Positions 1-16,496 of a stretch of DNA of 64,000 nt are shown one piece after another (within the stretch, counting starts at the first letter, position 1; each line of letters opens with the position of its first letter). Under the pieces are notes generated by a model that had not been told where the DNA came from, did no database searches, and saw only the letters and a program-made list of their open reading frames with translations. The position numbers and the translations under genes were made by a program. Location: assembly GCF_002979475.1 (NCBI RefSeq), contig NZ_PCOY01000003.1, positions 186,001 to 250,000 of the forward strand, in the 5' to 3' direction. Source of the stretch: Microbacterium sp. MYb62. Its GTDB lineage: Bacteria > Actinomycetota > Actinomycetes > Actinomycetales > Microbacteriaceae.

Positions 1-76
1 TGCGGGACTCGGTGCAGTCACCCGGGCCAGCGCCCTCCTCACACCGCTCGGAGAATCGCTCCACGTCGTCCTTCAT
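1..76 (-). CDS. 5' fragment of an unrecognised gene (N-terminal 25 residues)
   Basis: Only the first 25 codons lie in the window; the gene runs off the left edge. An ATG at 76-74 is preceded about eight bases upstream by a strong purine-rich Shine-Dalgarno stretch (AGGGGGGA on the minus strand), and no stop occurs before the edge. The peptide begins MKDDVERFSERCEEG and carries two cysteines, too little to identify. It lies 103 bases downstream of the acidic protein gene in the same direction, so it could be a ninth member of the kinase-phosphatase unit, but the gap and its own strong ribosome site also allow independent expression. Confidence 0.5.
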   Translation of the reverse strand, partial: MKDDVERFSERCEEGAGPGDCTESR

Positions 77-179
77 CGATGTTCCCCCCTCAAGGCCATC
101 CCCTCACCCTACGTGACGGTGGCGCCGCGAGTTGAGCACGTCGTGGCGGCGGGAGCGGTCGACGCGGAGCGGGCGCCGA

Positions 180-995
180 TCAGCCGAAGACGACGAACCC
201 GAGCGCCACGAGACCGGCTGCCGAGACGACGCACGCCCCCGCAGCGGCGACGAGCGTGATCAGGCTCCACCGCTGCCCCTGCTTCGCGACGGAAGGAAGC
301 CCCGGGTCCTCGACCCGCGTGGGCGCCGCGGCACCCATCACGACGGGCGGCGCGACAGGCGCGAGCGGTGCCGGGCGAGGCTTGTAGATCGCCGGAGTCG
401 GACCATCGGTCGGCGCCGCGAACGATTCGACGCGCCGGACGTTCCCGGTGTCTTCCGGACCCGATTCCTCGGCGCCCGCCGCGTCGGCGCGCTTCCGTCG
501 CAGGCGACGCGCCGGTCGGGAGACGACGACGGTGGCCTCGTCGGGGGCGTCGGCCTTCGGTGCTGCGGCGCGGTCGACGACGACCGTCGCCTCGTCGAGA
601 GACTCCGCGGCTTCGAGAGACGCCACCTCCTCCGGGGCTTCTCCCGTGTCGGAGGCGCCCAGCACGTCGAACGCCTCCGGCTCACCAGGTGCATCCCGCT
701 CTTCGGGCAGCGACGCGGGTTCGTCCTGTTCGTCCGGGTTGCCAGGATCGTCGAGGTCGTTCCCCGATTCCGCCTCGTCGGATGCGGCGGTCTCGTCGGC
801 CGGCAGAGCGGGCTCGACGTCCTGCACGGCTTTCGCGCGTTTCACCACGATGGTCGCCTCGTCCGCATCCGCGTCCGCGTCCGCGTCCGCGTCCACGAGC
901 GGCTGCGCCTCCGCAGCGTCGGTTCCCGAAGAAACAGCGCGCCGCCGGTCGCGGCGGGTGAGGATGATCGTCTCCTCGGTCTCGTCGTCGGTCAT
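180..995 (-). CDS. acidic single-pass membrane protein with repeated Thr motifs
   Basis: This 271-residue protein is low-complexity and acidic for about 160 residues, then basic, and ends in one hydrophobic segment (about 243-270) reaching the C-terminus, so most of it should be cytoplasmic and tail-anchored. Four similar motifs are visible: ETIIL (Thr9), DEATIVVKR (Thr48), DEATVVVDR (Thr137) and DEATVVVSR (Thr155). The neighbouring FHA protein carries two more. The ATG at 995 overlaps the phosphatase stop as ATGA; a longer upstream reading into the phosphatase gene has Arg-rich out-of-frame composition and is rejected. It is the last clear gene of the unit. I infer a phosphorylated scaffold for the FHA protein; no enzyme fold is recognised. 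A (DA)n tract at residues 35-44 is encoded by a 6-bp repeat. Confidence 0.75.
   Translation of the reverse strand: MTDDETEETIILTRRDRRRAVSSGTDAAEAQPLVDADADADADADEATIVVKRAKAVQDVEPALPADETAASDEAESGNDLDDPGNPDEQDEPASLPEERDAPGEPEAFDVLGASDTGEAPEEVASLEAAESLDEATVVVDRAAAPKADAPDEATVVVSRPARRLRRKRADAAGAEESGPEDTGNVRRVESFAAPTDGPTPAIYKPRPAPLAPVAPPVVMGAAAPTRVEDPGLPSVAKQGQRWSLITLVAAAGACVVSAAGLVALGFVVFG
871..894. repeat. GCGTCC hexanucleotide repeat, four copies
   Basis: Four perfect 6-bp copies inside the acidic protein gene encode part of the Asp-Ala tract. Copy number changes would alter linker length by two residues without shifting the frame. Confidence 0.8.
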
Positions 996-1819
996 CTCGC
1001 CCGTACCGGGATCGTCGTGCCCTCGAGCATCGAATCGGTGAGCGCAGACGCCGCGATCCGACCGGCGGTTCCCTCTTCGGTGCGTGTGCGCGCCCCACCC
1101 GAGACGACATCGATCACGACGACCGAGACGTTGTCGCGTCCGCCGGCCTGGAGCGCCCTGCGGACCAGCGCCGTGGCGGCGGTCTCGGGGCGTCCGTTCA
1201 TCGTCAGCGTCGCCCGGATGGCCTCGTCGCTGACCTCCCCGCTCAGACCGTCGGAGCACAGCAGCAGACGCTCGCCGTCGACGACCGGGAGCAGCCAACT
1301 GTCCGCGGTGCTGTCGGGCGCGCCGATGGCGCGCGTGATCACGTTGCGCTGCGAGAACGAGGCGAGGTCCTCTGCCCGGAGCTCACCCGCATCGACGAGC
1401 TCCTGTCCCAGTGAGTGATCGATCGTCAGCTGCACGAGCTCGTTGCCGTGGTGGCGGTAGACACGGGAATCGCCGACGTTGAAGACGAGCCAGTGCGGCG
1501 AGCCCTCGTGTTCCACGAGCGCGACACCGGTGACCGTGCTGCCCGCTCCGCGCTTGTGTGCGGCAGCGATACCCTCGACGACGTCCGCCGCGCGGCTCAG
1601 GGCGTCGCGCACGTCGTCCACTTCCACCGCCCGCCCTCGCAACGGCTCGAACGCCGCCACGACGGCCGCGCTGGCTCGGTCGCCCGCCTCGTGCCCGCCC
1701 ATCCCATCGGCCACGAGGAACACCGGCGACGCATTCAGCACCGAGTCCTCGTTCGCCGTGCGCTTGAGTCCGGTGTCGGTCAGCGACGCGACATTGAGGA
1801 CGACCGACGCGACCGTCAC
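992..1819 (-). CDS. PP2C-family Ser/Thr protein phosphatase
   Basis: This 275-residue protein is a complete PPM/PP2C phosphatase of the bacterial PstP/Stp type, expected to remove phosphate from Ser/Thr sites in the cytoplasm using two metal ions. Signature blocks are present in order: NEDS near residue 24, VADGMGGHEAGDRAS (about 36-50), FNVGDSRVYR (about 112-121), LCSDGLSGEV (about 187-196) and GRDNVSVVVID near the end. Unlike PstP it lacks a transmembrane or extracellular part. The GTG start at 1819 overlaps the stop of the FHA gene as GTGA, and the gene's own stop overlaps the next start as ATGA. The context pairs it with the kinase at the head of the same unit. Confidence 0.93.
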   Translation of the reverse strand: MTVASVVLNVASLTDTGLKRTANEDSVLNASPVFLVADGMGGHEAGDRASAAVVAAFEPLRGRAVEVDDVRDALSRAADVVEGIAAAHKRGAGSTVTGVALVEHEGSPHWLVFNVGDSRVYRHHGNELVQLTIDHSLGQELVDAGELRAEDLASFSQRNVITRAIGAPDSTADSWLLPVVDGERLLLCSDGLSGEVSDEAIRATLTMNGRPETAATALVRRALQAGGRDNVSVVVIDVVSGGARTRTEEGTAGRIAASALTDSMLEGTTIPVRAR

Positions 1820-3657
1820 GAATCGCGCTCCGCGACGACATGCATGCCGACCTCGCCCAAGATGAACCGTCCGGTGCCGATGACGCTCTCGCCGGGATCG
1901 AGGAGCATCTCGGCTCCGTCATCCGCGACGACCACGACGCCGTTCGTGGCGTGCAGGTCGGTCAGACGCCACTCGTCCTCCTGCACGACGAGACGGGCGT
2001 GCGTCTTCGAGAGCGTGCGCGTGGTATCGGAAATCGCCAGCCGCTGCTCACCCGGGTCGCCGACCGGGTTGCGCCCGATCACGACACTCGCCCCCGACAG
2101 GGCGAACCGCCGACCGTCGTCCAGCACGAGGACGCGACGCACGCCGCGCTTGCGAGCGACGACGACCGTGGCGTCGAGGTCGTCATCCGTCGGACGCGGG
2201 GTCACCACGGTGGCGTCGACCTCGGGGGTCAGCCCACCCTGCGGGGCCGCCGGCGGCGCCACAGGGGCGAGGGGCTGTGCCGCAGGGGCAGGAGGCGCGA
2301 CCTGCGGGGCGGGAGGCGTGACCTGCGGGGTGGGAACGACGGGCTGTGCGGGCGCCGGGGCGGACGCGTTCGCCTCGCCGTCGACGGGTTCGCCGAGGGA
2401 CAGGTCCGGAGCAGGGCGGATCGTCGGCATCTGCGGTTCAGCGTCGTGAATCCCGTCATCCCGGAACGACGGCGGCACCGAGCGCACGGCGCGCTGCGGT
2501 TCGTCGACGGACGCGGCGAGCTCGGAATCCGCGGTCGGCGGCGCCGGACGCGGAACCGGTTCGAACACCGACGTCGACGGGTGCGCGGACGGGACCTCGA
2601 CGAAAAGAGGGGGTGCCGGCGGCTCGGGAGCCTGAGGCTCAGGAGCGAGCGGCTGCGGAGCCTGAGGCTCAGGAGCGAGCGGCTGCTCGACCGCTCCCGC
2701 CGGCGGTATGGCGACGGCGCCGGTCATGGCGGCCATGATCCCGGTCGGCGGGTACGCCTCCCCCGGCGCGGGCGGCACCGGCGCCGCGGCCGGGGGAACG
2801 AACGGCGCCCCGGGGGCGGGCGACTCCTGCGGCGCGGCCACGACGGGCTGCGGGGGCGCGACAGGCTGGGGCGCAGGCGGCGGCACGGCGGACGGCTGCG
2901 GTGCCGGAGGCGGGGGCGCCGGAAGCTGCGGCGCGGGAAGCTGCGGCGCGGGAGGCTGCGGCGCGGGAAGCTGCGGCGCGGGAATCTGCGCTGCCGGGGG
3001 CGCGAAAGACCGGGCGGGCGCATCCACCGGCGGCTGCCCCGCGACCGGCTGGGGCGGCACACCCCAGGCGGAGGGCGCGGGAGGTGCCACGGCCGCTTCC
3101 GGTTCGCTCGCCCGGGGCGGAGCGTAATCGGGGAAGACGAGCGCCGGGGACTCGGCCGGCGCCGTGCCGGAAGGCGACAGCGAGGGGATCGTGTAGCCCG
3201 AGGCGTCCCGTGCGGGAGCCGCCGCCGGCGACGCCGAGCGACGCGGACCGGGCTGGAGTGCGGCGAGACGTTCCCCCTCCGGATACGGGGCCGCGCCCCA
3301 CGCGAGGACCGTCGCCCAGACCGGCGGCAACAGGATGGCGAGCACGGTCATGCCGGCACCATGGCCGAACCGCTTGTTGATGCGGTGAGTGGCGACGACC
3401 TTCAGATACAGACCGTAGATCTGCACCAGGGGGATGAAGTAGAACACCACCGACCACGCGGGGACCCCACCGCGCGCCAGGATCTCCGCCTCGTTGAGAA
3501 CCGGGACCCAACCCTTCCACCCTTCACCGTCGATGCGCGGGAACAGGCGCGACAGCGCGAACGCGTACCAGACGTAGATGGCGATGCCGATGAGCAGTCC
3601 GAGACCGCCGACGATGAACAGCATCGTGGCCAGACCGGTGTCCGCGGGCGCGGTCAT
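1816..3657 (-). CDS. membrane-anchored FHA-domain protein (DUF5684-like N-terminus)
   Basis: This 613-residue protein starts with a hydrophobic region of three to four predicted membrane segments (about 8-145) resembling DUF5684 proteins, continues with a long Pro/Ala/Gln-rich linker with many PAPQ repeats (about 150-470), and ends in an FHA phosphothreonine-binding domain (about 510-605). FHA hallmarks are visible: VVIGRNP (Gly-Arg near 528), SKTHARLV and a following ATNG. Just before it lie DATVVTPR (Thr483) and DATVVVARKR (Thr497), reminiscent of the N-terminal phospho-Thr of GarA/OdhI. The start is the ATG at 3657, which overlaps the upstream stop as ATGA; the reading upstream of it lies inside the transglutaminase gene. 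Probable role: a membrane-tethered phospho-reader in the kinase-phosphatase unit. Confidence 0.88.
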   Translation of the reverse strand: MTAPADTGLATMLFIVGGLGLLIGIAIYVWYAFALSRLFPRIDGEGWKGWVPVLNEAEILARGGVPAWSVVFYFIPLVQIYGLYLKVVATHRINKRFGHGAGMTVLAILLPPVWATVLAWGAAPYPEGERLAALQPGPRRSASPAAAPARDASGYTIPSLSPSGTAPAESPALVFPDYAPPRASEPEAAVAPPAPSAWGVPPQPVAGQPPVDAPARSFAPPAAQIPAPQLPAPQPPAPQLPAPQLPAPPPPAPQPSAVPPPAPQPVAPPQPVVAAPQESPAPGAPFVPPAAAPVPPAPGEAYPPTGIMAAMTGAVAIPPAGAVEQPLAPEPQAPQPLAPEPQAPEPPAPPLFVEVPSAHPSTSVFEPVPRPAPPTADSELAASVDEPQRAVRSVPPSFRDDGIHDAEPQMPTIRPAPDLSLGEPVDGEANASAPAPAQPVVPTPQVTPPAPQVAPPAPAAQPLAPVAPPAAPQGGLTPEVDATVVTPRPTDDDLDATVVVARKRGVRRVLVLDDGRRFALSGASVVIGRNPVGDPGEQRLAISDTTRTLSKTHARLVVQEDEWRLTDLHATNGVVVVADDGAEMLLDPGESVIGTGRFILGEVGMHVVAERDS

Positions 3658-6209
3658 GAGTCCCCCTTCTTCCGGCCGCCGAGCGAACCGGTCAATCCGA
3701 GCGTACCGAGAGCGGGCCCGGCACCGAGCAAGCGCATGCCTCCCGCCGGCTTCGCCCTGACGATGAACGATGTCGGCCGCACGCGCATGAGCAGTCGGTG
3801 CCACCATGTGCCGGTGTGCGAGAGCTCGGTCCGCTCCGCGTCGACGATCTTCCAGGCCGCGGTCGCGTCGTCGCTCGTGGGCGGGTGCTCCGCGAAGACG
3901 GCACGATCGACGAGCACGGCCAAGCGCTCAGCGGCATCCCGCTCCGTCGACTCCGCGCGCTGCGCCCGCGTCCCCTGCACATCCATGACCACACCGTGGT
4001 CGGCGTACACGTCGACCAGCTCCTCCCAGGCCCCGGCGAGACGCACCTCGGGATCCTCGGCGGTGCGACGCACCCGAGCGCGCTGCCTCTTGGCGAGCAG
4101 GAGCACGAGGAACGGCAGCGCCAGCAGCACGAGCGCGAGGAGACTGAGACCGACGGCGGACAGGATCGGCAGCAGGATCGCCAGAACCTCGGACTGCGGC
4201 TCCTCGAGCGGAGGAGCCTCGTTGTTGGAGTCGCTCTGCGCCTGAGGCGGGTCCAGTGCCTCGGAGCGCGGCTGCTCCGGGACGGTGGGGTGCTCCGGCA
4301 GCTGCTCGCCCTCGGTGATGGCGCTGGGCAGCATCGCGTACTGGGGCGTCGTGTCGACGGGGATCCACTCGCCGCCGGTGGCGCGCACCTCCACCCAGGC
4401 GCTCATGTTCGCACCGGTGCAGGCCTCGGAGCACGCGGGGATTCCCGGCACCTCTTCCGCGCCGGCGAGCCGCGCCCCGATCACGATGCGGGACTCGAGC
4501 CCCCAGTGCTCGGCGAGGAGCGCGGCGGCCACCGAGAACTGCTCGTCGTCACCGACCGCCGCGACGAGCATCTCCGGCGCGGCGTCCGCCCCCGCCCGTC
4601 GCTCCTGCTCGACCAGGTCGGCGAAGAGCTCTTCGATGCGGGCGGCGGAGTGACCGGCGTAGCTCGGAGCGAACGCATAGCCCTCGGCCCCCTTGAGCGA
4701 TGAGATCCAGCCCGCGGCGGCCTCGTCGTCGAGCAGCGCGTGGCTGAGGTAGCCGCGCTCGCGGAGGCGGTCGATGACCTCGAGGTAGCCGGCTCCCGTG
4801 CGGGGCTGCTCCTGCATCTCGGCCCATTCGGCGAGCACCGGGTACAGGTCGGTGTCGAGCGTCGACGCACCGCCCTGCAACGCGGTGACGTCACCCTGCT
4901 CGCCCGGGGCATCGATCAGCACCGTGTAGCGATCGCCCGGCACGAGTCCCTCTCCGCCGCCCGGAGCCTCGGCGACCGTGATCGCGGTATCGCCGCCGGC
5001 GTTCACGTGGAAGCCGTCCGCGAGATCGTCGGCACGGGAACCGGTGAACGCCGGAGCCTCGGCGAGCCCGGCCGGCGACGGGACCCAGATGCCTCGATAG
5101 GCCTCGCCGATCGTCATGTCGAGCGACACCCGACCCGGCGCCGGGAGCGCCGTGCGAGGCAGACGACTGAAGCGGTCGTCCGGATCGATGTGGAAATCCT
5201 CGCCGTCGTACGAGTCGAGCGTGACGAGCCGGATGCGGTCGACGGCACCGGGGTCGCCCTGCACCTGCACGACCGTCGCGTCGAGCGTGTCGCCCGCGAA
5301 CCAGGACCGGTAGGCGCTGAGCGGACTGGGCTGCTGCTGCACCACGATCATGGGCTCGATCTCGTCGCGCAGCACCGAGCGATCCGACCACCCCGCTGCG
5401 GCCGGAGCGATCGCGAATCCGGCGATGAGTGCGACGACGGCGAGTGCCGCCGAGAGGAGGTGGCGTCGCACGCTCAGCCACACCGGAGTGGCCTGGCGGG
5501 AGATGTTGGCCGCCGCGACGATGCGCAGCGCTTCGGCACGCTGCAGTCGCGCCCGACCGACGAGCCAGACCAGAGAGGAGACGAAGAACGCGACCCCGAT
5601 CAGCCATTCCCGCGGAGCAGGGAGGGTCATGCCGAGCACCGTGACCGGAGCCGTCGTGCCACTCACCCCGAAGGCGATGCCGAAGACGCTCATCGCGACC
5701 ACGACCGGCACGGCGATCGTGGCGCGGCGCCCCGTCTCCAGCACGAGGAGCGCGGCGAGGAACGATCCGAACAGCATCACGACGAGGAAGGGGATGAGAA
5801 CGGCCTGGTACTCGCCCAGCGGCGGGTTCAGCGTCAGCATCTGCTTCCACCCGAGGACGACCCCGAGCACCGCATCGCGGAGACCGCCGAGGAACGCCGG
5901 GACGGAGGAGAGCGCCGAGGGGATCGCGAGCGGCACCGCGACCACCACGTAGACACCAGCTGCCGCGAGCACGGCGATGAGCGTTCCCCAGCGCAGCGCC
6001 CGCGCCACGACGGCGACGGTGATGCCGAGGATGCCGCCGACGAGACCCACCACGAGGGCACGAGGGGATTCGTACACGGGCCACGCGGCGGCGGTCGCGA
6101 GGAGCACACCGACCAGCACATAGCCGAGAGACCAGAAGGTCAGAGCCGACACGGCGAAGGTGCGGCGTGATCGCGCCACCCTGCCGCGCTTCGGACCGGC
6201 GGCGCTCAC
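3654..6209 (-). CDS. multipass protein with a degenerate transglutaminase-like domain
   Basis: This 851-residue protein follows the TgpA/DUF3488-transglutaminase plan: about seven N-terminal membrane segments (residues 20-265), a large extracytoplasmic part with the transglutaminase fold (about 540-640), another membrane helix near 680-705, and a cytoplasmic tail. The fold blocks are recognisable (EQFSVAAALL, GLESRIVIGARL, SAWVEV, GEWIPVDTT). By manual alignment the usual catalytic Cys before the first block is Asp555, and the His expected before AWVEV is Ser603, while Asp619 is kept. It therefore looks inactive as a transglutaminase or protease. The GTG at 6209 overlaps the DUF58 stop. MoxR, DUF58 and transglutaminase genes are a well-known triad; here the enzyme may serve as a structural or binding module. 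Confidence 0.85.
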   Translation of the reverse strand: MSAAGPKRGRVARSRRTFAVSALTFWSLGYVLVGVLLATAAAWPVYESPRALVVGLVGGILGITVAVVARALRWGTLIAVLAAAGVYVVVAVPLAIPSALSSVPAFLGGLRDAVLGVVLGWKQMLTLNPPLGEYQAVLIPFLVVMLFGSFLAALLVLETGRRATIAVPVVVAMSVFGIAFGVSGTTAPVTVLGMTLPAPREWLIGVAFFVSSLVWLVGRARLQRAEALRIVAAANISRQATPVWLSVRRHLLSAALAVVALIAGFAIAPAAAGWSDRSVLRDEIEPMIVVQQQPSPLSAYRSWFAGDTLDATVVQVQGDPGAVDRIRLVTLDSYDGEDFHIDPDDRFSRLPRTALPAPGRVSLDMTIGEAYRGIWVPSPAGLAEAPAFTGSRADDLADGFHVNAGGDTAITVAEAPGGGEGLVPGDRYTVLIDAPGEQGDVTALQGGASTLDTDLYPVLAEWAEMQEQPRTGAGYLEVIDRLRERGYLSHALLDDEAAAGWISSLKGAEGYAFAPSYAGHSAARIEELFADLVEQERRAGADAAPEMLVAAVGDDEQFSVAAALLAEHWGLESRIVIGARLAGAEEVPGIPACSEACTGANMSAWVEVRATGGEWIPVDTTPQYAMLPSAITEGEQLPEHPTVPEQPRSEALDPPQAQSDSNNEAPPLEEPQSEVLAILLPILSAVGLSLLALVLLALPFLVLLLAKRQRARVRRTAEDPEVRLAGAWEELVDVYADHGVVMDVQGTRAQRAESTERDAAERLAVLVDRAVFAEHPPTSDDATAAWKIVDAERTELSHTGTWWHRLLMRVRPTSFIVRAKPAGGMRLLGAGPALGTLGLTGSLGGRKKGDS

Positions 6210-7576
6210 CGGAGAGCTCCCCGCGCGAGCATCTGCGGAAGGTCGCCGAGCGCGCCGAGAGTCATCACCGCGAGCTCACGCGCCGTGCGCATCGTGGGCT
6301 GCTCGCCGAGTTCGCTGCGCACTGCGACCGCCTCGACGGCCGCCGGAAGCTTCACCGCCGCGTGACGCAGTCGCTCCAGGGGCATCCGAGAGCCGGTGAG
6401 CAGGAAGCCGATGGAGAGGTCGGGATACGACTGCGCGGTGAGCGCGGCGACGGCCTCGAGGCGCATGACGCGCTCGGCCGGATCGATCGTCGAGGTGGCG
6501 TCGAGGAGAGCCTTGGGCGTGACCGTCGGCAAGGTGCGGATCGACAGCACCTCGGCGCGACTCTGCTCGGGGATCTCGTTGCTCACGGAGAAGAGCACGT
6601 CTCGGCCGTCGCGCACACCCTGCAGAGCGAGGGACGCCGCGGCGCTGACCGTGTTCTCGAACTCGTCGTCGCTCTCGTACGACTCGGTGTCGAGGTCGAG
6701 GATGATGGCGATGCGGGCGTGCCGGGACTCCTCGTACTGGCGCACCATGAGCTTGCCGGTCTTCGCGGTCGACTTCCAGTGCACGTGCCGCTGGGAGTCG
6801 CCGACGACGTACTCGCGCACGGCGTGGAAGGACAGGTCGGCGTCGACCAGCGTCGTGCTCGGTGTGCCTTCGAGGTCGCGGATCAGCCCGGCGCTGGTGC
6901 TCGGGAGGCGCACCGTCACCGGATGCACGTGGATGCGCTGCACGTCGGGCCAGCGCAGCTCGCGACGGAGGATGCCGATCGGGTCACCCCGGGTGATCGT
7001 CATCGGCCCGACATCGATGACGCCGCGGCGGTGTGCGGCGATCGTGAGCTGTTCGCGGTGGTGCGCTCCCGGTCGCAGGAGCGGCACATGCGCCTCGACG
7101 AGGCCCTCCCCCACGGGCACGTCGACGATGCCGGGCAGGGAGAGCCGGGTGCCGTTGTTGCGCACGTCGAGCGTGGCACCGATCTCGGCGCCGGCGACGA
7201 CGCGGTCGCGATCGAGAGCGAGGTCGATCCGGTAGTCATGTGCACCGAGGATGAACGGGACGCAGGCCAGCAGCAGCACCAGTGCGATCGCGGCCACCGC
7301 CCACGCCTCGACCCAGCCGAAGAGCAGCCCCGCGGTGATCCCGAGCACGCAGGCCACCGCCACCAGCATCCCCGCCGCCGTGACGGTCTCGCGCACCCAG
7401 CCGACGACGGCCCTCGCCGCACGCCCGGTGTTGCGAGCCGCCCGACGTACACCGAACACCGCACCGCGGACAGGTCCGCGGTGCGTCCGGTCGTACCGCG
7501 TCACGGTGGTCGTGCGGGTCGACGTGCTCGTGCCTGCCGCGGTGCGCGTCAGGCGGGATTCGGTGCTGAAGCTCAC
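6206..7576 (-). CDS. DUF58 domain-containing membrane protein
   Basis: This 456-residue protein has an N-terminal Thr/Arg-rich stretch, two adjacent hydrophobic helices (about 60-110), and a C-terminal DUF58 domain marked by the motif REYVVGDSQRHVHWKSTA followed by KLMVRQYEE and a von Willebrand-like strand (IAIILDLD). DUF58 proteins accompany MoxR ATPases and are thought to be their partners or substrates, but no biochemical activity is established. The start is taken as GTG 7576, which overlaps the MoxR stop as GTGA; the open frame upstream of it lies within the MoxR gene and has shadow-like Arg-rich composition. Confidence 0.88.
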   Translation of the reverse strand: MSFSTESRLTRTAAGTSTSTRTTTVTRYDRTHRGPVRGAVFGVRRAARNTGRAARAVVGWVRETVTAAGMLVAVACVLGITAGLLFGWVEAWAVAAIALVLLLACVPFILGAHDYRIDLALDRDRVVAGAEIGATLDVRNNGTRLSLPGIVDVPVGEGLVEAHVPLLRPGAHHREQLTIAAHRRGVIDVGPMTITRGDPIGILRRELRWPDVQRIHVHPVTVRLPSTSAGLIRDLEGTPSTTLVDADLSFHAVREYVVGDSQRHVHWKSTAKTGKLMVRQYEESRHARIAIILDLDTESYESDDEFENTVSAAASLALQGVRDGRDVLFSVSNEIPEQSRAEVLSIRTLPTVTPKALLDATSTIDPAERVMRLEAVAALTAQSYPDLSIGFLLTGSRMPLERLRHAAVKLPAAVEAVAVRSELGEQPTMRTARELAVMTLGALGDLPQMLARGALR

Positions 7577-8562
7577 GCAGTGCCGTTCTCGCGCGGAGGC
7601 TCCACATCGAGGAGGATCTGTCCGATCACGGCAACGGCCGTCACGCCGTCGAACTCGGCCTCGGGCTCGAGCACCAGTCGGTGCGCGAGTGCGACGACGG
7701 CGAGTTCGCGCACATCGTCGGGGGTCGCGAACGTGCGGCCGTTCTTGGCGGCCCACGTCATCACCATCCGGGACAGGGCGAGTGCCCCTCGGACGCTCGC
7801 GCCCAGACGCACCTCGGATGCGCGACGCGTCGCATCGACGATGCGCATGATGTAGTCCGAGACGAGCGGGTTCACATACACGCCGCGCGACATCTCGGCC
7901 ATCGTGAGGATCGTGTCCGTGCCCACGATGCCGTCGAGCACGACCTTCTGCCGGCCCGCGCCCTGGAGGATGCGCATGGTGGCCGCCTCGTCGGGGTAGC
8001 CGATCGAGGTCTTGATCATGAAGCGGTCCAGCTGCGCCTCGGGCAGACGGTACGTGCCGCCCTGCTCGATGGGGTTCTGCGTCGCCATCACGAGGAAGGG
8101 CGACCCGACCGGCCGTGTCACGCCGTCGACGGTGACCGTGCCCTCTTCCATGACCTCGAGCAGCGCCGACTGCGTCTTCGGGCTCGCACGGTTGATCTCA
8201 TCCGCGAGCACGATGTTCGCGAAGACGGGACCCGCGTGGAACTCGAAGGCTCCCTCCTTCTGGTCGTAGACGGTGATGCCCGTCACGTCGCCGGGGAGGA
8301 GGTCGGGGGTGAACTGGATGCGCGTGCTCGTGCCGTTCACGGTCTGGGCGACCGCACGGGCGAGAGCCGTCTTCCCGGTTCCGGGGAAGTCCTCGAGCAG
8401 CACGTGGCCCCCGCTGACGGCGGCGGCGAGCACCAGCTCGATCACGTGCAGCTTGCCGAGGATCGCCTGCTCGATGTTGCCGGTGAGGATCGAGAACGTC
8501 TCGGCGAACCAGGATGCCTGTTCGGGAGCGATGGTCACGGGTGCGGCTGAGGTGGCTGGCAT
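7573..8562 (-). CDS. MoxR-family AAA+ ATPase
   Basis: This protein of about 329 residues is a MoxR-type AAA+ ATPase, a chaperone-like ATPase usually linked to maturation or activation of partner complexes. It shows Walker A (FPGTGKTALARA), Walker B with the MoxR signature (LADEINRASPKTQ), a sensor-1 stretch (VMATQNPIEQGGTY) and the arginine-rich LPEAQLDRF block. The ATG at 8562 is preferred because the conserved domain starts soon after it; GTG 8616, which would overlap the upstream stop by eight bases as most junctions here do, is an alternative adding 18 residues. Neither has a strong ribosome site, fitting translational coupling. DUF58 and transglutaminase partners follow directly. Confidence 0.93.
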   Translation of the reverse strand: MPATSAAPVTIAPEQASWFAETFSILTGNIEQAILGKLHVIELVLAAAVSGGHVLLEDFPGTGKTALARAVAQTVNGTSTRIQFTPDLLPGDVTGITVYDQKEGAFEFHAGPVFANIVLADEINRASPKTQSALLEVMEEGTVTVDGVTRPVGSPFLVMATQNPIEQGGTYRLPEAQLDRFMIKTSIGYPDEAATMRILQGAGRQKVVLDGIVGTDTILTMAEMSRGVYVNPLVSDYIMRIVDATRRASEVRLGASVRGALALSRMVMTWAAKNGRTFATPDDVRELAVVALAHRLVLEPEAEFDGVTAVAVIGQILLDVEPPRENGTA

Positions 8563-8608
8563 AACAGCAAGAGTATTCGTCCGCGGGGCGCGCGACGCGC
8601 GACCCGCG

Positions 8609-11600
8609 TCACTCACAGGTACCCGCGACACGATGGGTGATGGTCTTCAACGCACCGAACGCGTCTATCCAGTCGATGGTCACGTCGAAGGCGCCGGGGG
8701 TGTCCACCACCGCAGTCGAAGTGAGGGCATACGCACCCCGCGCGGCGCGCGACACCGTCACGACGTCTTTCTCCACGGCCGGCATACAGGCCTGGAAGGT
8801 CACGTCCACGGTGGTCGGCGCCGTCCTGGCGGTGACGGGCACCTCACCGGAGCAGTACCCGGTGAAGACGGCATGGCATGCCTGCGCCCGCACCTGTCCC
8901 GGAGACGCGTCGGAGGTGAGCGAGAACTCGGACTTCTTCTCCCCGTACATGTAGTACTTGGGCACGAACCCGTCCTGGACGTGGATGCTCGGTGCGGAGG
9001 CCAGTCCGTAGGTGTAACGGTCGCCCTCGCGCGTGGGAGTGTCCGCCACCGTGTAGCTGGCGTCTCCACCGGGGCCGTCGACGAAGGTGAAGGTGAACAC
9101 CTGCGCCGTCGACGACTCCGCGACGCCGTACCCGTTCGACGCGCACGCCTTGACGTTGTACGTCTGGTACTGCTGCAGGCCCTGCAGGGACGGCGAAGCG
9201 GACTGCACCTCGGCTCCCGCGACCGAGAGTCGGCCGTTCCCGTCGGCGGTGCAGCTGGCCGTGCCCGAGCGCCAGGCCAGATAGACGACGTCGACGCCCA
9301 GTGCGCTGCCGTTGGCCTGCGGCGCGACGCCCGAGACGCTCACGGAGGTGTTCGTCACGGCATCGGCCTGCGTCCAGGAGGGGTCGAAGTACACCGTGCC
9401 CGCGGCCGTCACCGAGGTGCGGAAGGCGCCGCCCTCGTTCCCACCCTCGCCGGTCGGGGGCTGGAACTGGCTGATCGGGACGAGCGTGAGGGTCTGCGCT
9501 CCGGGCGACAGCGCGATGTCGGCCGATGTGGTCGCCCCGGTGCGGGGGATGACCTGCCCGTTCTCCTCGATCCGGAAGGCCTGCGCGTCGTCGGAAGCGC
9601 TGATCGACAGTGCGACCACGCCCTGCCCGCGCTCCGTCACACCCGGTCGGTAGACGGGCGCGGCCGATGCGTTCGAGACGACCGGCGCGGCGTAGGCCCA
9701 GCTGGTGTGCGGCGACGTGGCCGCCGATGTGCCGACCGCGTTGACGGCGGATGCGGTGAAGACGTGCGGTGCGCCGTTGACCAGCCCGTTCACCGTGCAG
9801 CGATACACGGCGCCGGCCGGACTGCACGAGGCGTTCGCGGGAGAGCCGTCCTGCAGGATGGTCACTCCGGAGACGCCGGGGTGGGCGCGGCCGGCTTCAC
9901 CGAGCGGAACCTCGAGCACCACGCTCGACCGGCTGAAGCCGACGGTGGTGACGCTCGCCGGAGCCTGCGGGAAGCCCTGGAGGTCGAGGGTGAGGGTTCC
10001 CGTGCCCGTACGGCCCTGGGCATCCGACACCACGAACGGGATGACGCACTGTCCGCCGGGCGCCTGTCCGCCTCCGGGCCAGGTCGCGGTGATGGCCTTG
10101 CTGCCGGAGGTCGCGACGGAGGCGACATCGCATCGTGCGCCCGCGCCGAGCGACATCAGTCGCAGGCCGGAGCCGGGCTTCCCGACGAACGGGTCGTACT
10201 CGCCCGCGACGTCGACGACATCGATCGTGCAGCTCGCACTCGTGACGATGCACTGCTTCGTGAACGTCGCTCCGCGCGGGGCATCGGGCGGCGCAGCGCC
10301 CACGACCAGGCGCACCGATGCCGACGGCTGACCGTACTGCGGCACCGTGACGCTGACGTTCTCGGTGTTGCCCGGTCGCGCATCGGCGCGGGCCTCGATC
10401 GTCAGCGTCGAGCCGCTCTGGGTGACGATGAACGCCGATCCGGAGTGCACGATCCGATACTCGAGCGAGCCGACGTTGCCCTCGCGCCCGCCTTCCCAGG
10501 CCGCCATGTTGGCGTAGAGGTCGACGGTCTCGGTCGCTCCGGGAGCGATCGTGTGCGCGATCGACGAGAGCAGCAGCTGCGGCTCGGCGGGACGGATGCT
10601 GACCGGCACATCGATGTACGACCAGCGCTCCTGTCCTTGCAGGCGCACCGGGATCAGGCAGGTGTCGGACCACGGCGCCTCGCGGCCGGCACGGTACACG
10701 GCTCCGCCCGAGCCCTCCGCGGCGCACGACGCCGCAGCGCGCTGCGCGGTGAACTGGCCCGAACCGACTTCCACGGCATCCGACGACGCCAGATCGACGT
10801 AGTCGCCCACCGCGAACGAGGCGGACGCATCCTCGTCGACCACGACCGGGGTCGCTCCCGGCTTGAGCTGCACCTGCATGTCGTCGAAGGCCGGGATCCG
10901 CAGGAACCCGTAGGCGACGACGCCGCGGCCGCCCGCCGCCGTCCCCGACAGCTGGAACGGCACCAGCGCGCCTTCCTGCGGCGCCGCCCCCACGATGCGG
11001 TTGCCCTGCACCGTGTACCCGGGCTGCTCGCCCCACAGGCTCAGCTTCAGCGACGAGGCATCACCGGACGGCCAGCTCACACGGTCGGTCACGACGTCGA
11101 CCCCGCGATCGGCGAGGTCGTCACGATCACGGGCGGTGAGGACGGTGTCGGCGACGCTCGGCTGATCGGCGACGGTGCCGTCGGTCACGGTGACCACGAT
11201 GAGCCCCTGCGCGGTGCTCCCCGTCCGCTTCGACTTCACGGTGTAGAAGTACGAGTTCGTGCCTGCCGTGTCGCCGGCGCGGAGCACGACGCGGCCATCC
11301 TTCAGCGCGGTGTCCGAGTCGATCAGCGCGTTCAGTCGCTCATACAGCGGGTTGCCCTTGACCGGAGGCGCATTGGGCACGAGCTCCGTGATCTCGAGTT
11401 CGCTCTGCGCGGGGTCGAGGTCGTTCGAACGCGGGTCCAGCACGATGGGGGTCTTCGACCCCGCCTCGACGCGGACATAGTCGCTGAAGGTCACCGGGGC
11501 GGCATCGTCGACGTCGGCATCCAGCACGCCGATACGGACGGCTCCGCTCCCCTCCTCGCCCTGCGGATCGCGCACGGTGTAGCGGAACGAGACCTGCCCG

Positions 11601-14530
11601 CCGTCGACACCGCCGGCAGGAGCCCGATACACGATGGCCTCGCCGTTCGCCGAGATCGTCGCCGTGCCCGCCCCCTTCTCCGGCTGCTCGATGCCGGCGA
11701 GCACGACCCGGTCGCCATCGCTGTCCATCCCGGTCGCGGGAACGGGGAGCGAGACGGTCTGACCGCTCAGGACGCGACCGGTGAGCGTCGTCGGAGTGGG
11801 CGCGCGGTTCGTCCCCGGCGGCAGGACCGTGACGGTCACGATGCCGTTGTCGTACAGCGACGGGTTGCGTTCGAGGGAGACGGCGTACGTGAGCCGATAG
11901 GTGCCAGGAGTCGTGGGCGCCAGGTAGCGCAGCGCGTTGCGATCGGCGAACACGAGTTCATCCGGCTCACCGGACCCGGTCACCTCCGGAAGCACCACCA
12001 GCGGTTCACCGCGGGGCGCCACGTCGTTCGCGGTGACGTTGATGCGGGTGAGAGAGCCGGCGCGCACGGTGATCGCATCGGGGAACACGATCGGCCGCGT
12101 GACCGTCGACGGCGGCGTGAGGAAGACGGTGACCGTCCCCTCCACGGCCGCGCCCGACCCGTCGGCGACGGTCACCGTGGCCTTGCCGATCACGCCCGGA
12201 TCACCGCTCTCGGTCGTGCCGTTGACGCGGATGCTCTCGTTGCCGACCACCCGCACGTTGAGCTGCGGGGTCGAGCTCACGGCGCCGGACAGCATCAGCA
12301 CCCGGCCGCTGGTGTTCTGCACGGCCCGGAGGACGTCGACGGTCGTGTCCTCGCCCTCGCGCACGAACGCGGTGAGGGGCGCCATCGCGAGTCCCGAGGA
12401 GCCGTCGACGGCGGTGATGCGGATGACCGCCGACTGCTCGGCCTGCGTCGACGCGTCCTGCGCCGTGTAGGTGACCACGTACTGACCGGGTTCGGCGACC
12501 GTCAGCTCGACCGTGCCCGAAGCCGGATTCGGCGTCACCTCGAGCCCCTGCGCGGTGGCCGCGGTCTGCACCGCGTCGACGAGTCGGTACGATCCCGAGC
12601 CTCCGGAGAGGTGATCGGAGATGCGCACGGACTGGCGCTCGCCGACCCGGGCGGTCAGTGCCACCGGCGAGGCGATCAGTGCCGGGCTTCCGGTGACCTG
12701 CACGTCGAGGGTCTTCTCGGCGGTCGCTCCGTGGACGTCCTGGACGACGACGGTGACGGAGATCACCGCATCCGCCGCGTTCTGATCGGTGTGCCGGATC
12801 GCCACGCGCCCGTCGGCCATCGGCACCACCATCACGGGAGCCGAGGAGTCGGTCTCGTAGGCGTCGCTGAGGATGAAGGGGTCGCCTTCGGGGTCGACCC
12901 AACCCGAGAGCGCGGAGACGACCGTGCTGCCCCCGGGAAGAAGCTGTGGCGCCGGCCACTCCTGTTGACAGGCGTCGACGCCGCACCAGACGGGCGCCGA
13001 GTTCACCCCGGGATCGACCACGGTCAGCGTCACCGTCGCGGGAGAAGACACCGCAGCGCCGTCGGTGACGGCATAGGTGAAGGATGTCTGCCCCGAGCCC
13101 GCCTTCACGTTCACGACCAGCGACTGCCCGTTGGCGACGAGCGTCAGATCACCGAACGCGGAGTCGGAGAGTCCTCCCGACACCGAATCGGGATCGATCG
13201 TCAGGACGTCCTTCTTGTTCGGATCGTGATCGTTGAGCAGAACGGGCAGGATCACCTGCTCCCCGGCGCGCACGCCGAACGCATCGTCGACCGCGACGGG
13301 CGGAAGCTGCTCCGCCACGTCCTCGACGATGATCGTGCCCTCCTGCTGCTCGGTGTCGTCTTCGATCTTCCACTGCTCGAGCGGGATGAGCACGCCGTCC
13401 GGCGCGGTCCAGATGAGGCCGGTCCCGGTCTCGCTCAACACGGCGCGATCGCCGTTCTCCTGGAAGACCGGCGCGATCGTGGCGGAGTCGAGCGTCTCAT
13501 CGGGAACCCGCAGCGGCACCGTCTCGCCGTCTGTCCACAGCGTTCCCGCCCCGGTGTCGAGCCAGGCGGCATAGGTCTTCCCCCCGACCACGACCGGTGC
13601 CGCAGGGACCCCGGTCGCGTCCGCCACCCGCTCGGATTCGCCCGAAGCCGGGTCGACCGACACGAGCCCGTCCGAGTCGGCGACGACGAGGGCATCACCG
13701 GAAGCGGATCCGCCCTGCAGGCGCGCATCCTCCACGACGTCGAGCTCGACCGGCTGGTCGCGGCCGGAGATCCACAGGGCGCCGGAGCCCGCCTGCAGCA
13801 TCGCCCAGCGATCGCCGACGACGGTGAGCGCCAGACCGTCGCCGGCCTCCGGCGCCTCGGGCACGGAAGCCGCATCGCCGAGGAACCTGTGCTCATCGAT
13901 GTCGAATCGCCGAACCGCTCCCTCATCCGCGGAGTAGAGGACCAGGAGACCGTCGGGCGACAGGCCGATCGCATCCGCCGTGTAGGTGGGAGGGTCCTCG
14001 CCCTCTTCGACCTCGACCCCCGCGAAGGGATCGACGAGCGCCGTCCCCGCCCCGGCCGCGACGGTGGAGACGGAGACCTGGCCGGTGTCGGTGCGATACG
14101 CCACGTACGGACCGGCGGAGAGGATCTCCCTGGTACCGGCGGGGGTGGGCTCCGAAGCGAGCGGAGTCCCCTCTTCGGAGGAATCGGAGAGGAGGTCGGC
14201 GGGGCTTGCCGGGTCGAGGTCCCAGCGCTGCCTGTTGCCCTGGGCGTAGAGCACCGCGGCGGAGCCGTTCTGCCAGACCGCCTCGGGGTCGTCGACGTTG
14301 CGCACGGTGTCGATCTCGGCGAGCTCGGTGTTCACGCGGGCGTACTGACCGCTGTCGCGCATGACCCAGACCGAGGCGTCGAGGCGTGGAACCTCCTGCG
14401 ACTGATACCCCTGCGCCGTCACCGCGAGGGTGAGCACGACGGCCAGCGCGGCGATCCCCGAGATCGTCGCGATCAGTCGACCGCGGGGCCGCCTGATCGC
14501 TTCTGTGCTCTTCCGGTCGCCGATCGCCAT
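8609..14530 (-). CDS. giant membrane-anchored Ig-like/fibronectin repeat protein
   Basis: This 1973-residue protein has a short basic N-terminus, one hydrophobic helix (about 19-40) and no evident cleavage site, so it is read as a type II membrane protein with about 1930 residues outside the cell. Residues 45-400 look like repeated beta-strands (propeller-like, with recurring Leu-Val-Ser-Asp blocks). From about 400 a string of Ig/cadherin-like modules follows, with recurring phrases such as DPNKKD, DPEGDPF, DSDGDRV, DPQGEEG and NDLDPAQ, and fibronectin-like modules near the C-terminus (SVSGVAP, QTYNVKACASNGYG). Several cysteine pairs sit in the C-terminal half. The ATG at 14530 shares its A with the kinase TGA stop. 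Because the kinase has no outside domain, this protein is the obvious candidate sensor or surface effector of the unit. Confidence 0.88.
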   Translation of the reverse strand: MAIGDRKSTEAIRRPRGRLIATISGIAALAVVLTLAVTAQGYQSQEVPRLDASVWVMRDSGQYARVNTELAEIDTVRNVDDPEAVWQNGSAAVLYAQGNRQRWDLDPASPADLLSDSSEEGTPLASEPTPAGTREILSAGPYVAYRTDTGQVSVSTVAAGAGTALVDPFAGVEVEEGEDPPTYTADAIGLSPDGLLVLYSADEGAVRRFDIDEHRFLGDAASVPEAPEAGDGLALTVVGDRWAMLQAGSGALWISGRDQPVELDVVEDARLQGGSASGDALVVADSDGLVSVDPASGESERVADATGVPAAPVVVGGKTYAAWLDTGAGTLWTDGETVPLRVPDETLDSATIAPVFQENGDRAVLSETGTGLIWTAPDGVLIPLEQWKIEDDTEQQEGTIIVEDVAEQLPPVAVDDAFGVRAGEQVILPVLLNDHDPNKKDVLTIDPDSVSGGLSDSAFGDLTLVANGQSLVVNVKAGSGQTSFTYAVTDGAAVSSPATVTLTVVDPGVNSAPVWCGVDACQQEWPAPQLLPGGSTVVSALSGWVDPEGDPFILSDAYETDSSAPVMVVPMADGRVAIRHTDQNAADAVISVTVVVQDVHGATAEKTLDVQVTGSPALIASPVALTARVGERQSVRISDHLSGGSGSYRLVDAVQTAATAQGLEVTPNPASGTVELTVAEPGQYVVTYTAQDASTQAEQSAVIRITAVDGSSGLAMAPLTAFVREGEDTTVDVLRAVQNTSGRVLMLSGAVSSTPQLNVRVVGNESIRVNGTTESGDPGVIGKATVTVADGSGAAVEGTVTVFLTPPSTVTRPIVFPDAITVRAGSLTRINVTANDVAPRGEPLVVLPEVTGSGEPDELVFADRNALRYLAPTTPGTYRLTYAVSLERNPSLYDNGIVTVTVLPPGTNRAPTPTTLTGRVLSGQTVSLPVPATGMDSDGDRVVLAGIEQPEKGAGTATISANGEAIVYRAPAGGVDGGQVSFRYTVRDPQGEEGSGAVRIGVLDADVDDAAPVTFSDYVRVEAGSKTPIVLDPRSNDLDPAQSELEITELVPNAPPVKGNPLYERLNALIDSDTALKDGRVVLRAGDTAGTNSYFYTVKSKRTGSTAQGLIVVTVTDGTVADQPSVADTVLTARDRDDLADRGVDVVTDRVSWPSGDASSLKLSLWGEQPGYTVQGNRIVGAAPQEGALVPFQLSGTAAGGRGVVAYGFLRIPAFDDMQVQLKPGATPVVVDEDASASFAVGDYVDLASSDAVEVGSGQFTAQRAAASCAAEGSGGAVYRAGREAPWSDTCLIPVRLQGQERWSYIDVPVSIRPAEPQLLLSSIAHTIAPGATETVDLYANMAAWEGGREGNVGSLEYRIVHSGSAFIVTQSGSTLTIEARADARPGNTENVSVTVPQYGQPSASVRLVVGAAPPDAPRGATFTKQCIVTSASCTIDVVDVAGEYDPFVGKPGSGLRLMSLGAGARCDVASVATSGSKAITATWPGGGQAPGGQCVIPFVVSDAQGRTGTGTLTLDLQGFPQAPASVTTVGFSRSSVVLEVPLGEAGRAHPGVSGVTILQDGSPANASCSPAGAVYRCTVNGLVNGAPHVFTASAVNAVGTSAATSPHTSWAYAAPVVSNASAAPVYRPGVTERGQGVVALSISASDDAQAFRIEENGQVIPRTGATTSADIALSPGAQTLTLVPISQFQPPTGEGGNEGGAFRTSVTAAGTVYFDPSWTQADAVTNTSVSVSGVAPQANGSALGVDVVYLAWRSGTASCTADGNGRLSVAGAEVQSASPSLQGLQQYQTYNVKACASNGYGVAESSTAQVFTFTFVDGPGGDASYTVADTPTREGDRYTYGLASAPSIHVQDGFVPKYYMYGEKKSEFSLTSDASPGQVRAQACHAVFTGYCSGEVPVTARTAPTTVDVTFQACMPAVEKDVVTVSRAARGAYALTSTAVVDTPGAFDVTIDWIDAFGALKTITHRVAGTCE

Positions 14531-15663
14531 CAGAGGATCCCGGTGACGAAGAGGACGACCGTGCCGATCGCGGCGAGCGCGGTCGCGCCGATCAGGGCGC
14601 CGATGATCCCGGCGACAAGGGGCGAGCGCGTGCGGCGCCGGGGGGTCGACGGGAGGTCATCGCGCTCGCGCGGCGCGGCCTGAGGGCGTGCGGCGCGCAC
14701 GGCGCGTCGCGAGTCCGGGGCGACGGTGGTGATGACGGGTCCGCGGACGGTGGAATCCGAGAAGCTCACCGGCGCGGCGGCGGCCCATTCCGCCGACGCC
14801 GCCTCGAACGCGGTCGGGGCGATCCCGAGCTCGTACTGCGCCCAGCGCAGCCGCTCCGCGAATTCCGCCATGCTCGCGGGGCGCTTGCCGGGGTCCCGGT
14901 GCATCGCGGTCGCGAAGATGTCGTCGATGATCGGGGGGATGCCACCGACCGGCACCGCCGTGTAGCGCGCCTTGATGATCCGTTCGGTGAGCTGATCGCG
15001 CGAGTTCGAGCCGCGATCGGCCCGCTCGAAAGGACTGCGGCCGGCGAGCAGGGTGTACAGCGTCGCTCCGAGGCTCCAGACCTCGCTGGGCACCGACCCG
15101 GACACCCGCTCCTGCAGCACCTCGGGTGAGCTCCACGGCACGGACATCGCGATGGTCTCGCCGTCACCCTCGTCGATGACGGCCGCCGCGATCCCGAAGT
15201 CGGCCAGCACCGGGGCGCCGAGGGAGTTGATGAGCACGTTCGACGGCTTGATGTCGCGATGGAGCAGACCAGCCCTGTGCACGGTCTCGAGCGCGCCGGC
15301 GATGCGCACCCCGATGTCGAGTACCTCGGCGAGCGGGAGCGGAGCCTTCTTGTAGCGGGCGCTCATCGTGTCGGGGCAGTACTCCATCGCGAAGTACGGT
15401 CGACCGTCGGCGGAGATCGACGCCTGATAGATGGTGACGATCGACGGATGCGCGCTCAGCCGTGCGGAGATGTCGGCCTCCACGTTGAAGGTGCGCAGAA
15501 CCTCGGGGTTCACGGCATCCGCCAGCAGCACCTTCACCGCGGCGACACGACGCGGCATGTCCTGTTCGTAGAGGAACACGTCGGCGAAACCACCGGAACC
15601 GAGCGGGCGCACGTAGCTGTAGCCGGCCAGCGTCGGCGGTGTCGCTGCCATGCGCGTTGCCAC
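14530..15663 (-). CDS. membrane-anchored Ser/Thr protein kinase (PknB-like)
   Basis: This 377-residue Hanks-type kinase has all core elements: glycine loop LGSGGFADVF (21-30), AVK Lys44, the HRDIKPSNV catalytic loop (Asp136), DFG (Asp154), a WSSPE segment and the ERADR region. A juxtamembrane linker (about 265-345) is Arg/Ala-rich. One hydrophobic segment (about 347-375) ends the protein, leaving almost nothing outside, so it lacks the PASTA or other sensor domains seen in PknB relatives. The GTG at 15663 has a well-spaced GAGGAG upstream and is preferred over the in-frame ATG four codons later. It is the first gene of the eight-gene unit; the phosphatase, FHA protein and Thr-motif protein downstream are likely counterparts. 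Confidence 0.93.
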   Translation of the reverse strand: MATRMAATPPTLAGYSYVRPLGSGGFADVFLYEQDMPRRVAAVKVLLADAVNPEVLRTFNVEADISARLSAHPSIVTIYQASISADGRPYFAMEYCPDTMSARYKKAPLPLAEVLDIGVRIAGALETVHRAGLLHRDIKPSNVLINSLGAPVLADFGIAAAVIDEGDGETIAMSVPWSSPEVLQERVSGSVPSEVWSLGATLYTLLAGRSPFERADRGSNSRDQLTERIIKARYTAVPVGGIPPIIDDIFATAMHRDPGKRPASMAEFAERLRWAQYELGIAPTAFEAASAEWAAAAPVSFSDSTVRGPVITTVAPDSRRAVRAARPQAAPRERDDLPSTPRRRTRSPLVAGIIGALIGATALAAIGTVVLFVTGIL

Positions 15664-15744
15664 TCATGCTCCTCACGGTCGGAAAGGGAGACCGCGCCCT
15701 GCATGACCCCGACGCACCGCGTCGGGAGATCCCCCCGGTCACCG

Positions 15745-15750
15745 ATTATA
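15745..15750 (-). promoter_or_regulatory. candidate -10 box of the kinase operon
   Basis: A perfect TATAAT reads on the minus strand in the 134-base gap upstream of the kinase gene, about 82 bases before its GTG. I see no good -35 at 17-18 bases. In DNA of this GC content a perfect match in the right place is suggestive. Confidence 0.4.
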
Positions 15751-15797
15751 TCGAGGGCCTGGACGATCCCGACGACGCATCCTCCGCGGTCGGCCCG

Positions 15798-16367
15798 TCA
15801 GGCGCGCCAGCACCCCGCGATGTGATCGTCGACCATCCCGGCCGACTGCATCAGGGCGTACATGGTGGTCGGTCCGACGAAGCGGAATCCGCGCCGCCGC
15901 AGCTCTTTGCTCAGCGCCGTCGATTCCGGCGTGACCGCCGGCACGTCGGCGAAGGCTGCGGGACGGGTGTCGGACACCGCAGGCGTGAACGACCACATGA
16001 GCTCGTCGAGCTCCCCCTCGGCCATTCCCCGCACGAGGCGGGCGTTGCCGATGGTCGCCTCGATCTTGGCGCGGTTGCGGACGATTCCGGCGTCGCCCAT
16101 CAGCCGCTCGACGTCGGACTCGTCGAATTCGGCGACGACCTCGGGCTCGAAGCCCGCGAACGCCTCCCGGAACCGCGGCCGTTTGCGCAGGATGGTGATC
16201 CACGAGAGCCCGGCCTGGAACCCCTCCAGCGCCATCTTCTCGAACAGCGCGCGGTCGCCGTGCAGGGGCGTGCCCCACTCCTCATCGTGATAGCGACGGT
16301 ACTCGTCGTCGTCGCCCACCCAGGCGCAGCGGTCGCGGGCATCGGGGCCCGTGAGGAGAGAGATCAT
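15798..16367 (-). CDS. tag: DNA-3-methyladenine glycosylase I
   Basis: This 189-residue protein matches the Tag family, which removes 3-methyladenine from alkylated DNA as the first step of base-excision repair. The N-terminal Cys followed by AWVGDDDEYRRYHDEEWG, the central LEGFQAGLSWITILRKR block (helix-hairpin-helix part, substrate Glu and Trp) and the C-terminal DDHIAGCW supply the Cys/His zinc ligands typical of Tag. The ATG at 16367 gives the usual family length; the frame continues upstream but without family similarity. It is tandem with the kinase operon but separated by a gap carrying that operon's promoter candidate. Confidence 0.93.
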   Translation of the reverse strand: MISLLTGPDARDRCAWVGDDDEYRRYHDEEWGTPLHGDRALFEKMALEGFQAGLSWITILRKRPRFREAFAGFEPEVVAEFDESDVERLMGDAGIVRNRAKIEATIGNARLVRGMAEGELDELMWSFTPAVSDTRPAAFADVPAVTPESTALSKELRRRGFRFVGPTTMYALMQSAGMVDDHIAGCWRA

Positions 16368-16496
16368 GCCTCCAACGTATCGGCGGTCGCCGACATGGCG
16401 AGCACCGCTCATCGACCACCCGCCCGATCCGGGATCATCCGGGAGTGCAGCACCAGAATGCTGGTCTGGCGGCGGCCTATCCACCAGACTGTGCGG

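Follow-up and report, generated by a model that had tools for sequence, protein, structure and literature searches.

What kind of system is encoded by the eight adjoining genes that lie, all on the minus strand, at positions 180-15663 of a 64,000-nucleotide stretch of Microbacterium sp. MYb62 DNA (contig NZ_PCOY01000003.1, positions 186,001 to 250,000; this whole stretch is hereafter called the window)? From the upstream end, they specify a Ser/Thr kinase (KIN), a giant surface protein (BIG), a MoxR-type AAA+ ATPase, a DUF58 protein, a polytopic transglutaminase-fold protein (TG), an FHA protein, a PP2C-type phosphatase and a tail-anchored protein with Thr motifs (THR). Judged by its sequence, the unit is an operon of the PFNA type, found outside the bifidobacteria, and its TG has no catalytic cysteine. 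A preliminary description of the locus had placed the eight families on one strand, joined by overlaps of 1-4 bases except at the MoxR start, and both points were borne out. Seven of the families are backed by Pfam matches above curated cut-offs (kinase, Big_9, AAA_3/MoxR, DUF58, Transglut_core, FHA and PP2C), while THR has no match in Pfam, NCBIfam or PADLOC at an E value of 0.001. KIN and BIG overlap by 1 base (TGATG) and five further junctions by 4 bases (ATGA/GTGA), which leaves a gap only before MoxR. No sigma-70-like promoter was found in positions 1-17000, where terminator-like sites are also near chance (3, against a mean of 2.5 in shuffles). Because the genes overlap, we infer that all eight form a single transcript.

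The preliminary description knew of no characterised example of such a unit. That claim does not hold, since the PFNA operon of Bifidobacterium is in print (PMC8430577). Its order is fixed as pkb2, fn3, aaa-atp, duf58 and tgm, followed in some species by prpC, a hypothetical gene and fha, and in B. longum GT15 all eight genes are cotranscribed (PMC8430577) and the Pkb2 kinase phosphorylates the operon's MoxR (PMC8430577, PMC10688814). The first five families of the window (kinase, FN3/giant protein, MoxR, DUF58 and transglutaminase) match this core in order and strand, and in both cases phosphatase and FHA genes come after it. In our collection, loci L091-L099 have the arrangement kinase-BIG-MoxR-DUF58-TG, and L100 has the same minus MoxR; PP2C and FHA genes come after the core in L091 and L093. 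The giant proteins of the window and L091 align with an E value of 3e-41 over 1358 columns, their kinases are 41% identical over 273 columns, the MoxRs of the window and of the bifidobacterial-type loci fall into one clade, and the catalytic cysteine is gone from both TGs.

Family f77, a group of small genomes that holds the L091-type loci and belongs to the same taxonomic order as the window, would be Bifidobacteriaceae because of three features: the PFNA gene order, the similarity of its phosphoketolase to PDB 3ahc and the placement of fn3 in L091. The phosphoketolase matches 3ahc, which we take to be the enzyme of Bifidobacterium breve, at 1720 bits; 8io8 and the rows below it score 862 at most. 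The L091 giant protein has two fn3 stretches (75.9 bits), the best of them at 1527-1600, near the FN3 position given in PMC10688814. The window unit also differs from its bifidobacterial relatives. Its FHA gene precedes that for PP2C, its FHA protein carries a DUF5684 membrane domain, its own fn3 match falls below the cut-off (22 against 25 bits) and its host is very likely a non-gut organism. Moreover, it ends with THR, whereas the seventh-gene product of L091 (15428-16237), L093 (3052-3663) and L095 (15530-16324) has two similar NP-rich stretches and no Thr motifs, and so bears no resemblance to THR.

PFNA has been called unique to bifidobacteria (PMC10688814), and a mycobacterial moxR operon has been likened to it (PMC12067865). 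With the window TG as query (E of 0.001 or below), the phylum yielded 59 matching genomes out of 396 and the order 174 out of 297, counts that take in some ordinary transglutaminases. From these longer match lists 38 regions (18 and 20) were picked by hand, and 35 had sufficient flank. On the TG strand of these 35, BIG (at a threshold of 60 bits for all gene counts) was present in 32, MoxR in 33, DUF58 in 35, the kinase in 28, FHA in 20, PP2C in 19 and all seven in 15; four BIG-bearing regions (L046, L047, L049 and L050) come from genomes that share just the phylum with the window. We also collected named-species loci, as the best 80 of 535 confirmed relatives found by two sequence patterns. 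Their hosts are mostly Microbacterium, with Agreia, Herbiconiux, Subtercola, Cryobacterium and Arthrobacter also represented, and 53 of the 54 with sufficient flank carry all seven shared families, the exception (L181) having no PP2C match. The families thus co-occur widely outside the MYb62 genome, so that the preliminary description escapes the refutation it had set for itself, a lack of such co-occurrence. Because those 53 loci lie outside Bifidobacterium, the restriction of PFNA to that genus fails; we take the printed range to be corrected and the kinship to be kept.

Two main gene orders were apparent: kinase first, as in the window and the bifidobacteria, and kinase last, as in most named-species loci. 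The gene for 3-methyladenine glycosylase, tag, lies about 135 bases upstream of the window unit on the same strand, and of 65 eligible named-species loci 16 have it ahead of BIG (L117, L118, L119, L122, L124, L126, L128, L130, L136, L143, L144, L146, L150, L167, L174 and L181). Because tag stands upstream of both the window's kinase-first unit and kinase-last units, the two orders look like alternative cassettes that share a single chromosomal site in Microbacterium. Among individual loci, L133 (Microbacterium galbinum) has a PP2C-THR pair, from 679-1488 onward, that immediately precedes a complete kinase-last unit and suggests a meeting of two versions, and L110 has two tandem DUF58-TG-kinase sets, neither with a MoxR match. 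Microbacterium-like units also occur in records labelled Planococcus (L134) and Stenotrophomonas maltophilia (L157), where contamination or mislabelling seems likely.

The TG of the window has a polytopic N-terminus, as judged by hydropathy, and an extracytoplasmic transglutaminase-fold domain, the predicted model of which is nearest in fold to Pseudomonas aeruginosa TgpA. MoxR, DUF58 and the polytopic TG stand in the same order as in the MoxR-DUF58-TgpA triad; the unit differs from that triad in the added giant protein and kinase, PP2C and FHA genes, and in its active site. In the window TG, the position of the catalytic cysteine is occupied by Asp (GDDEQ) and that of the His by Ser, while the Asp position is retained. 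The cysteine was absent from all 106 TGs encoded on the strand of a BIG gene (200 bits in this tally). One of the two patterns used to find named-species loci, GD[DSE]EQ, excludes cysteine, so that the 72 of 72 non-Cys count among them, which forms part of the 106, arises partly by construction; that pattern played no part in finding the 33 loci that came from similarity searches or the 14 that came from a BIG search. The cysteine was absent in 14 of 14 TGs from the loci found through BIG alone, and in the 33 the replacing residue was D (15), S (10), G (3), E (3) or A (2). In contrast, among 22 triads that have no BIG on their strand, 19 retain the cysteine, including one in the window's own genome (L230). 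These 19 comprise L051, L054 and 17 control triads, the last from 20 hand-picked control regions of which three had no triad; 15 of the 17 controls were aligned, and L243 and L240, which scored low in the alignment, were read separately. The L051 contig ends about 1.5 kb past MoxR, so that the presence of BIG cannot be judged there, and nine more Cys-less TGs have no BIG solely because the contig or locus ends first.

Taking TG at face value, as the preliminary description did, therefore fails, since the cysteine is gone in the window and in all the giant-protein-linked relatives examined. From its sequence, TG is likely to be a scaffold and not an enzyme, and conservation of such a putative pseudoenzyme argues against the cross-linking or protease activity presumed for it and points to scaffolding. 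Erythrocyte protein 4.2, a dead transglutaminase that serves as a membrane scaffold, offers a eukaryotic parallel; it is a weak structural match to the window TG, and we claim no homology. In the open-licence literature searched, we found neither the operon beyond bifidobacteria nor the Cys-less TG.

In the MoxR tree, one clade, which includes the window MoxR, takes in 43 of 45 BIG-labelled rows (in one such row, L053, BIG and TG lie on opposite strands), and the MoxR of L230, the ordinary triad of the same genome, is separate from it. MoxR ATPases remodel vWA partners, and the window DUF58 protein has a vWA-like motif in which the usual Ser residues are missing. Among BIG-linked DUF58 rows, Ser replaces the vWA Asp in 83 of 107 and Asp is kept in 17, while the control rows keep it in 16 of 16. 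We dropped this residue as a marker of BIG units, as the window retains the Asp.

The catalytic Lys and DFG are present in 92 of 92 aligned kinases, with HRD in 89 and HHD in 3, and KIN has almost no extracellular part past its C-terminal helix. The FHA protein consists of the N-terminal DUF5684 domain, a proline-rich linker, a pair of Thr motifs that begin at 481 and 495 (Thr 483 and Thr 497) and a C-terminal FHA domain whose core pattern includes SxxH and NG. Four further motifs of the same form, [DE]xT[VI][VIL], occur in THR, which ends in a hydrophobic helix. Across families, the motif is enriched over shuffled sequences in FHA (101 matches in 161 sequences against 14.7), THR (22 in 6 against 0.3) and KIN (40 in 99 against 8.4); DUF58 has 17 in 118 against 10.3 and TG 9 in 120 against 19.0, and it is absent from 110 MoxR (12.5 shuffled) and 85 PP2C sequences (5.7 shuffled). 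Its rate in flanking open reading frames is 0.14 per 1000 residues (12 in 85,919), compared with 1.29 for FHA. We predict that the motif is both phospho-acceptor and FHA ligand. In 23 of 160 FHA frames it lies within 60 residues before the FHA core; GarA and OdhI are FHA switches, and the window FHA protein resembles them in having Thr motifs shortly before the domain, differing in that there are two, plus the four on a separate protein. The Cys-less TG and the enrichment of the Thr motif in FHA, THR and KIN appear to be new. Compared with PFNA in print, what appears to be new is the range outside bifidobacteria, the pseudoenzyme recognised by sequence and the tail-anchored Thr-motif protein.

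The giant protein has a single N-terminal hydrophobic anchor (residues 19-37), an N-domain predicted from its model and Foldseek to be a beta-propeller, Big_9 domains, the sub-threshold fn3 match and a C-terminal tip. Its sequence contains no LPxTG motif, and we rejected sortase anchoring, and with it an LPxTG wall-anchored adhesin, on that ground. It would serve as an adhesin or as a receptor on the cell surface, with a tip that diverges fast.

These results suggest a model, to which we give about an even chance, whereby the eight products form a phosphorylation-controlled membrane machine that assembles or presents the giant protein. The kinase would phosphorylate the Thr motifs and PP2C would reverse this. 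Binding of phospho-Thr by the FHA domain would gather the membrane proteins kinase, THR and FHA around the DUF58-TG complex. Remodelling of DUF58 by MoxR would follow, in line with what this ATPase family does to vWA partners, and the ectodomain of TG would grip the giant protein, most likely at its membrane-proximal propeller, without cross-linking it. A comparable logic is known from type VI secretion, where the PpkA kinase, the PppA phosphatase and Fha1 make up a threonine phosphorylation pathway that governs an envelope machine containing an AAA+ ATPase; the window likewise has a kinase, PP2C and FHA protein beside an AAA+ ATPase, but no type VI parts were recognised among the eight genes, and the likeness is offered as an analogy only. 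The proposal of the preliminary description, a MoxR-based envelope unit that is gated by phosphorylation and includes a giant surface protein, is supported in part: its families co-occur widely, but PFNA is a known example, TG has lost its cysteine, and assembly of the giant protein by MoxR is a prediction. More tentatively, there may be a hitherto unrecognised, actinobacteria-wide class of surface-display machines, each a phospho-switched clamp of MoxR, DUF58 and dead TG on the propeller of a single ladder of about 2000 residues, its cytosolic side gathered by pThr-FHA contacts, with PFNA as one branch. As PFNA is common in actinobacteria such as Microbacterium and Arthrobacter, the question moves from cytokines to envelope biology, convenient laboratory hosts become available, and the widespread, poorly understood MoxR-DUF58-TG triad gains a candidate client in the giant protein.

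Several observations weigh against this model. In L048, L052 and L053 the cysteine is gone without a same-strand BIG (L053 has BIG on the opposite strand; L048 and L052 have open reading frames with weak fn3 matches upstream), and because of these three, the link between Cys loss and BIG is not strict. Almost every loss lies within one MoxR clade, so that their correlation with BIG is close to a single evolutionary event. The other catalytic residues persist in most BIG-strand TGs (of 106, 78 keep the His and 74 the Asp). L280 (G008 C11) has a giant-protein gene with no adjoining match to the triad; the same genome holds a complete unit at another place (L040). Since L041, L100 and L110 are BIG loci without a local MoxR match, MoxR may be dispensable or supplied from another place. 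As to the Thr motif, it was chosen after inspection of THR, is carried by under half of the FHA sequences (74 of 161), is missing from the window kinase and is also above expectation in BIG (124 in 116 sequences against 82.4 shuffled).

The main rival, which we consider rather doubtful, puts sensing first: the propeller and Ig/FN3 rod would sense a ligand and pass the signal into the cell by way of TG and DUF58, with the kinase as its target, making the triad a transducer. This is near the published view of PFNA as a cytokine sensor or adhesin (PMC10688814), according to which an FN3 fragment binds TNF-alpha and TNF-alpha induces PFNA genes (PMC10688814, PMC12607495). Moreover, propeller ectodomains of sensors of the BT4663 type are among the Foldseek matches to the BIG N-domain, and with a kinase almost devoid of an ectodomain a separate sensor would make sense. 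However, the propeller matches are generic, hosts that are mostly Microbacterium, plus Arthrobacter, Herbiconiux, Agreia and Cryobacterium, make cytokines unlikely as the ancestral ligand, and an AAA+ ATPase would suit remodelling better than sensing. Host-cytokine sensing may still apply in Bifidobacterium, which counts to that extent against an assembly machine.

We think it improbable that TG remains catalytic by other chemistry, with Asp or Ser taking over from Cys, for instance as a hydrolase whose substrate is the wall or the giant protein. The frequent retention of His and Asp would fit such an enzyme, as would an Asp that is invariant in a 35-sequence alignment, 34 of which came from a scan with a pattern favouring Asp; the replacing residue varies among D, S, G, E and A, though, the window has lost the His as well, and we know of no transglutaminase-fold enzyme with an Asp nucleophile. 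Equally improbable, in our view, is that MoxR-DUF58-TG and kinase-PP2C-FHA are independent modules that merely adjoin a surface gene and have no joint function. The signalling genes do shift place, with the kinase first or last, PP2C and FHA upstream of it in L043 and L044, and neither of these two matched in several f77 loci. Against this stand the overlapping frames of the window, the presence of the full set of seven families in 53 of 54 complete named-species loci and that of the triad beside BIG in 14 of 15 untruncated loci found through BIG (BIG being partial in L295). An anti-phage or conflict system akin to the MoxR-vWA-propeller ternary systems is, we think, very improbable. In its favour, the kinase matches PD-T4-6 models of PADLOC at up to 179 bits, and the MoxR is above the bpMoxR cut-off of the bpX system (41 against 27 bits). 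However, the kinase matches are numerous and look generic for the fold, the MoxR scores 206 bits with AAA_3, PADLOC adds just two weak MoxR matches (18 bits), and the propeller sits on the giant protein and is predicted to be extracellular. Among the matches listed from the phage-receptor literature, nothing concerned a PFNA-type system.

Coordinates of the unit and its upstream neighbour are collected in Table 1.

Table 1. Features of the eight-gene unit and adjoining sequence, in window positions.
Feature	Position	Strand	Support and remarks
KIN, Ser/Thr kinase, 377 aa	14530-15663	-	Pfam Pkinase 137 bits; C-terminal membrane helix 353-371
BIG, giant surface protein, 1973 aa	8609-14530	-	Pfam Big_9 above curated cut-off
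Gap between BIG stop and MoxR ATG, 46 bases	8563-8608	-	sole junction without overlap
MOXR, MoxR-type AAA+ ATPase, 329 aa	7573-8562	-	AAA_3 206 bits; AAA_lid_2 70 bits
DUF58 protein, 456 aa, GTG start	6206-7576	-	Pfam DUF58 40 bits; two membrane helices
TG, polytopic transglutaminase-fold protein, 851 aa	3654-6209	-	Transglut_core above curated cut-off
FHA protein	1816-3657	-	DUF5684 45 bits; FHA 26 bits
PP2C-type phosphatase, 275 aa	992-1819	-	PP2C_2 38 bits; Stp1_PP2C_phos 179 bits, under equivalog cut-off 230
THR, tail-anchored cytosolic protein, 271 aa, ATG at 995	180-995	-	Thr motifs; helix 245-263
tag, 3-methyladenine glycosylase, upstream neighbour outside the system	15798-16367	-	Adenine_glyco 238 bits

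Downstream, genes for EccB and EccD of type VII secretion lie on the opposite strand and converge on the operon end (contig C23, 181417-184176; L296, 1417-4176). Among 258 loci, many of them short, EccB-like matches occur in only 4 (L110, L118, L125 and L135), and we therefore dropped a functional tie to type VII secretion and treat these genes as neighbours. Elsewhere in the window, a 1731-residue frame with an MG2 domain (24057-29252) adjoins DUF5819 (23163-23978) and HTTM (21889-23247) frames.

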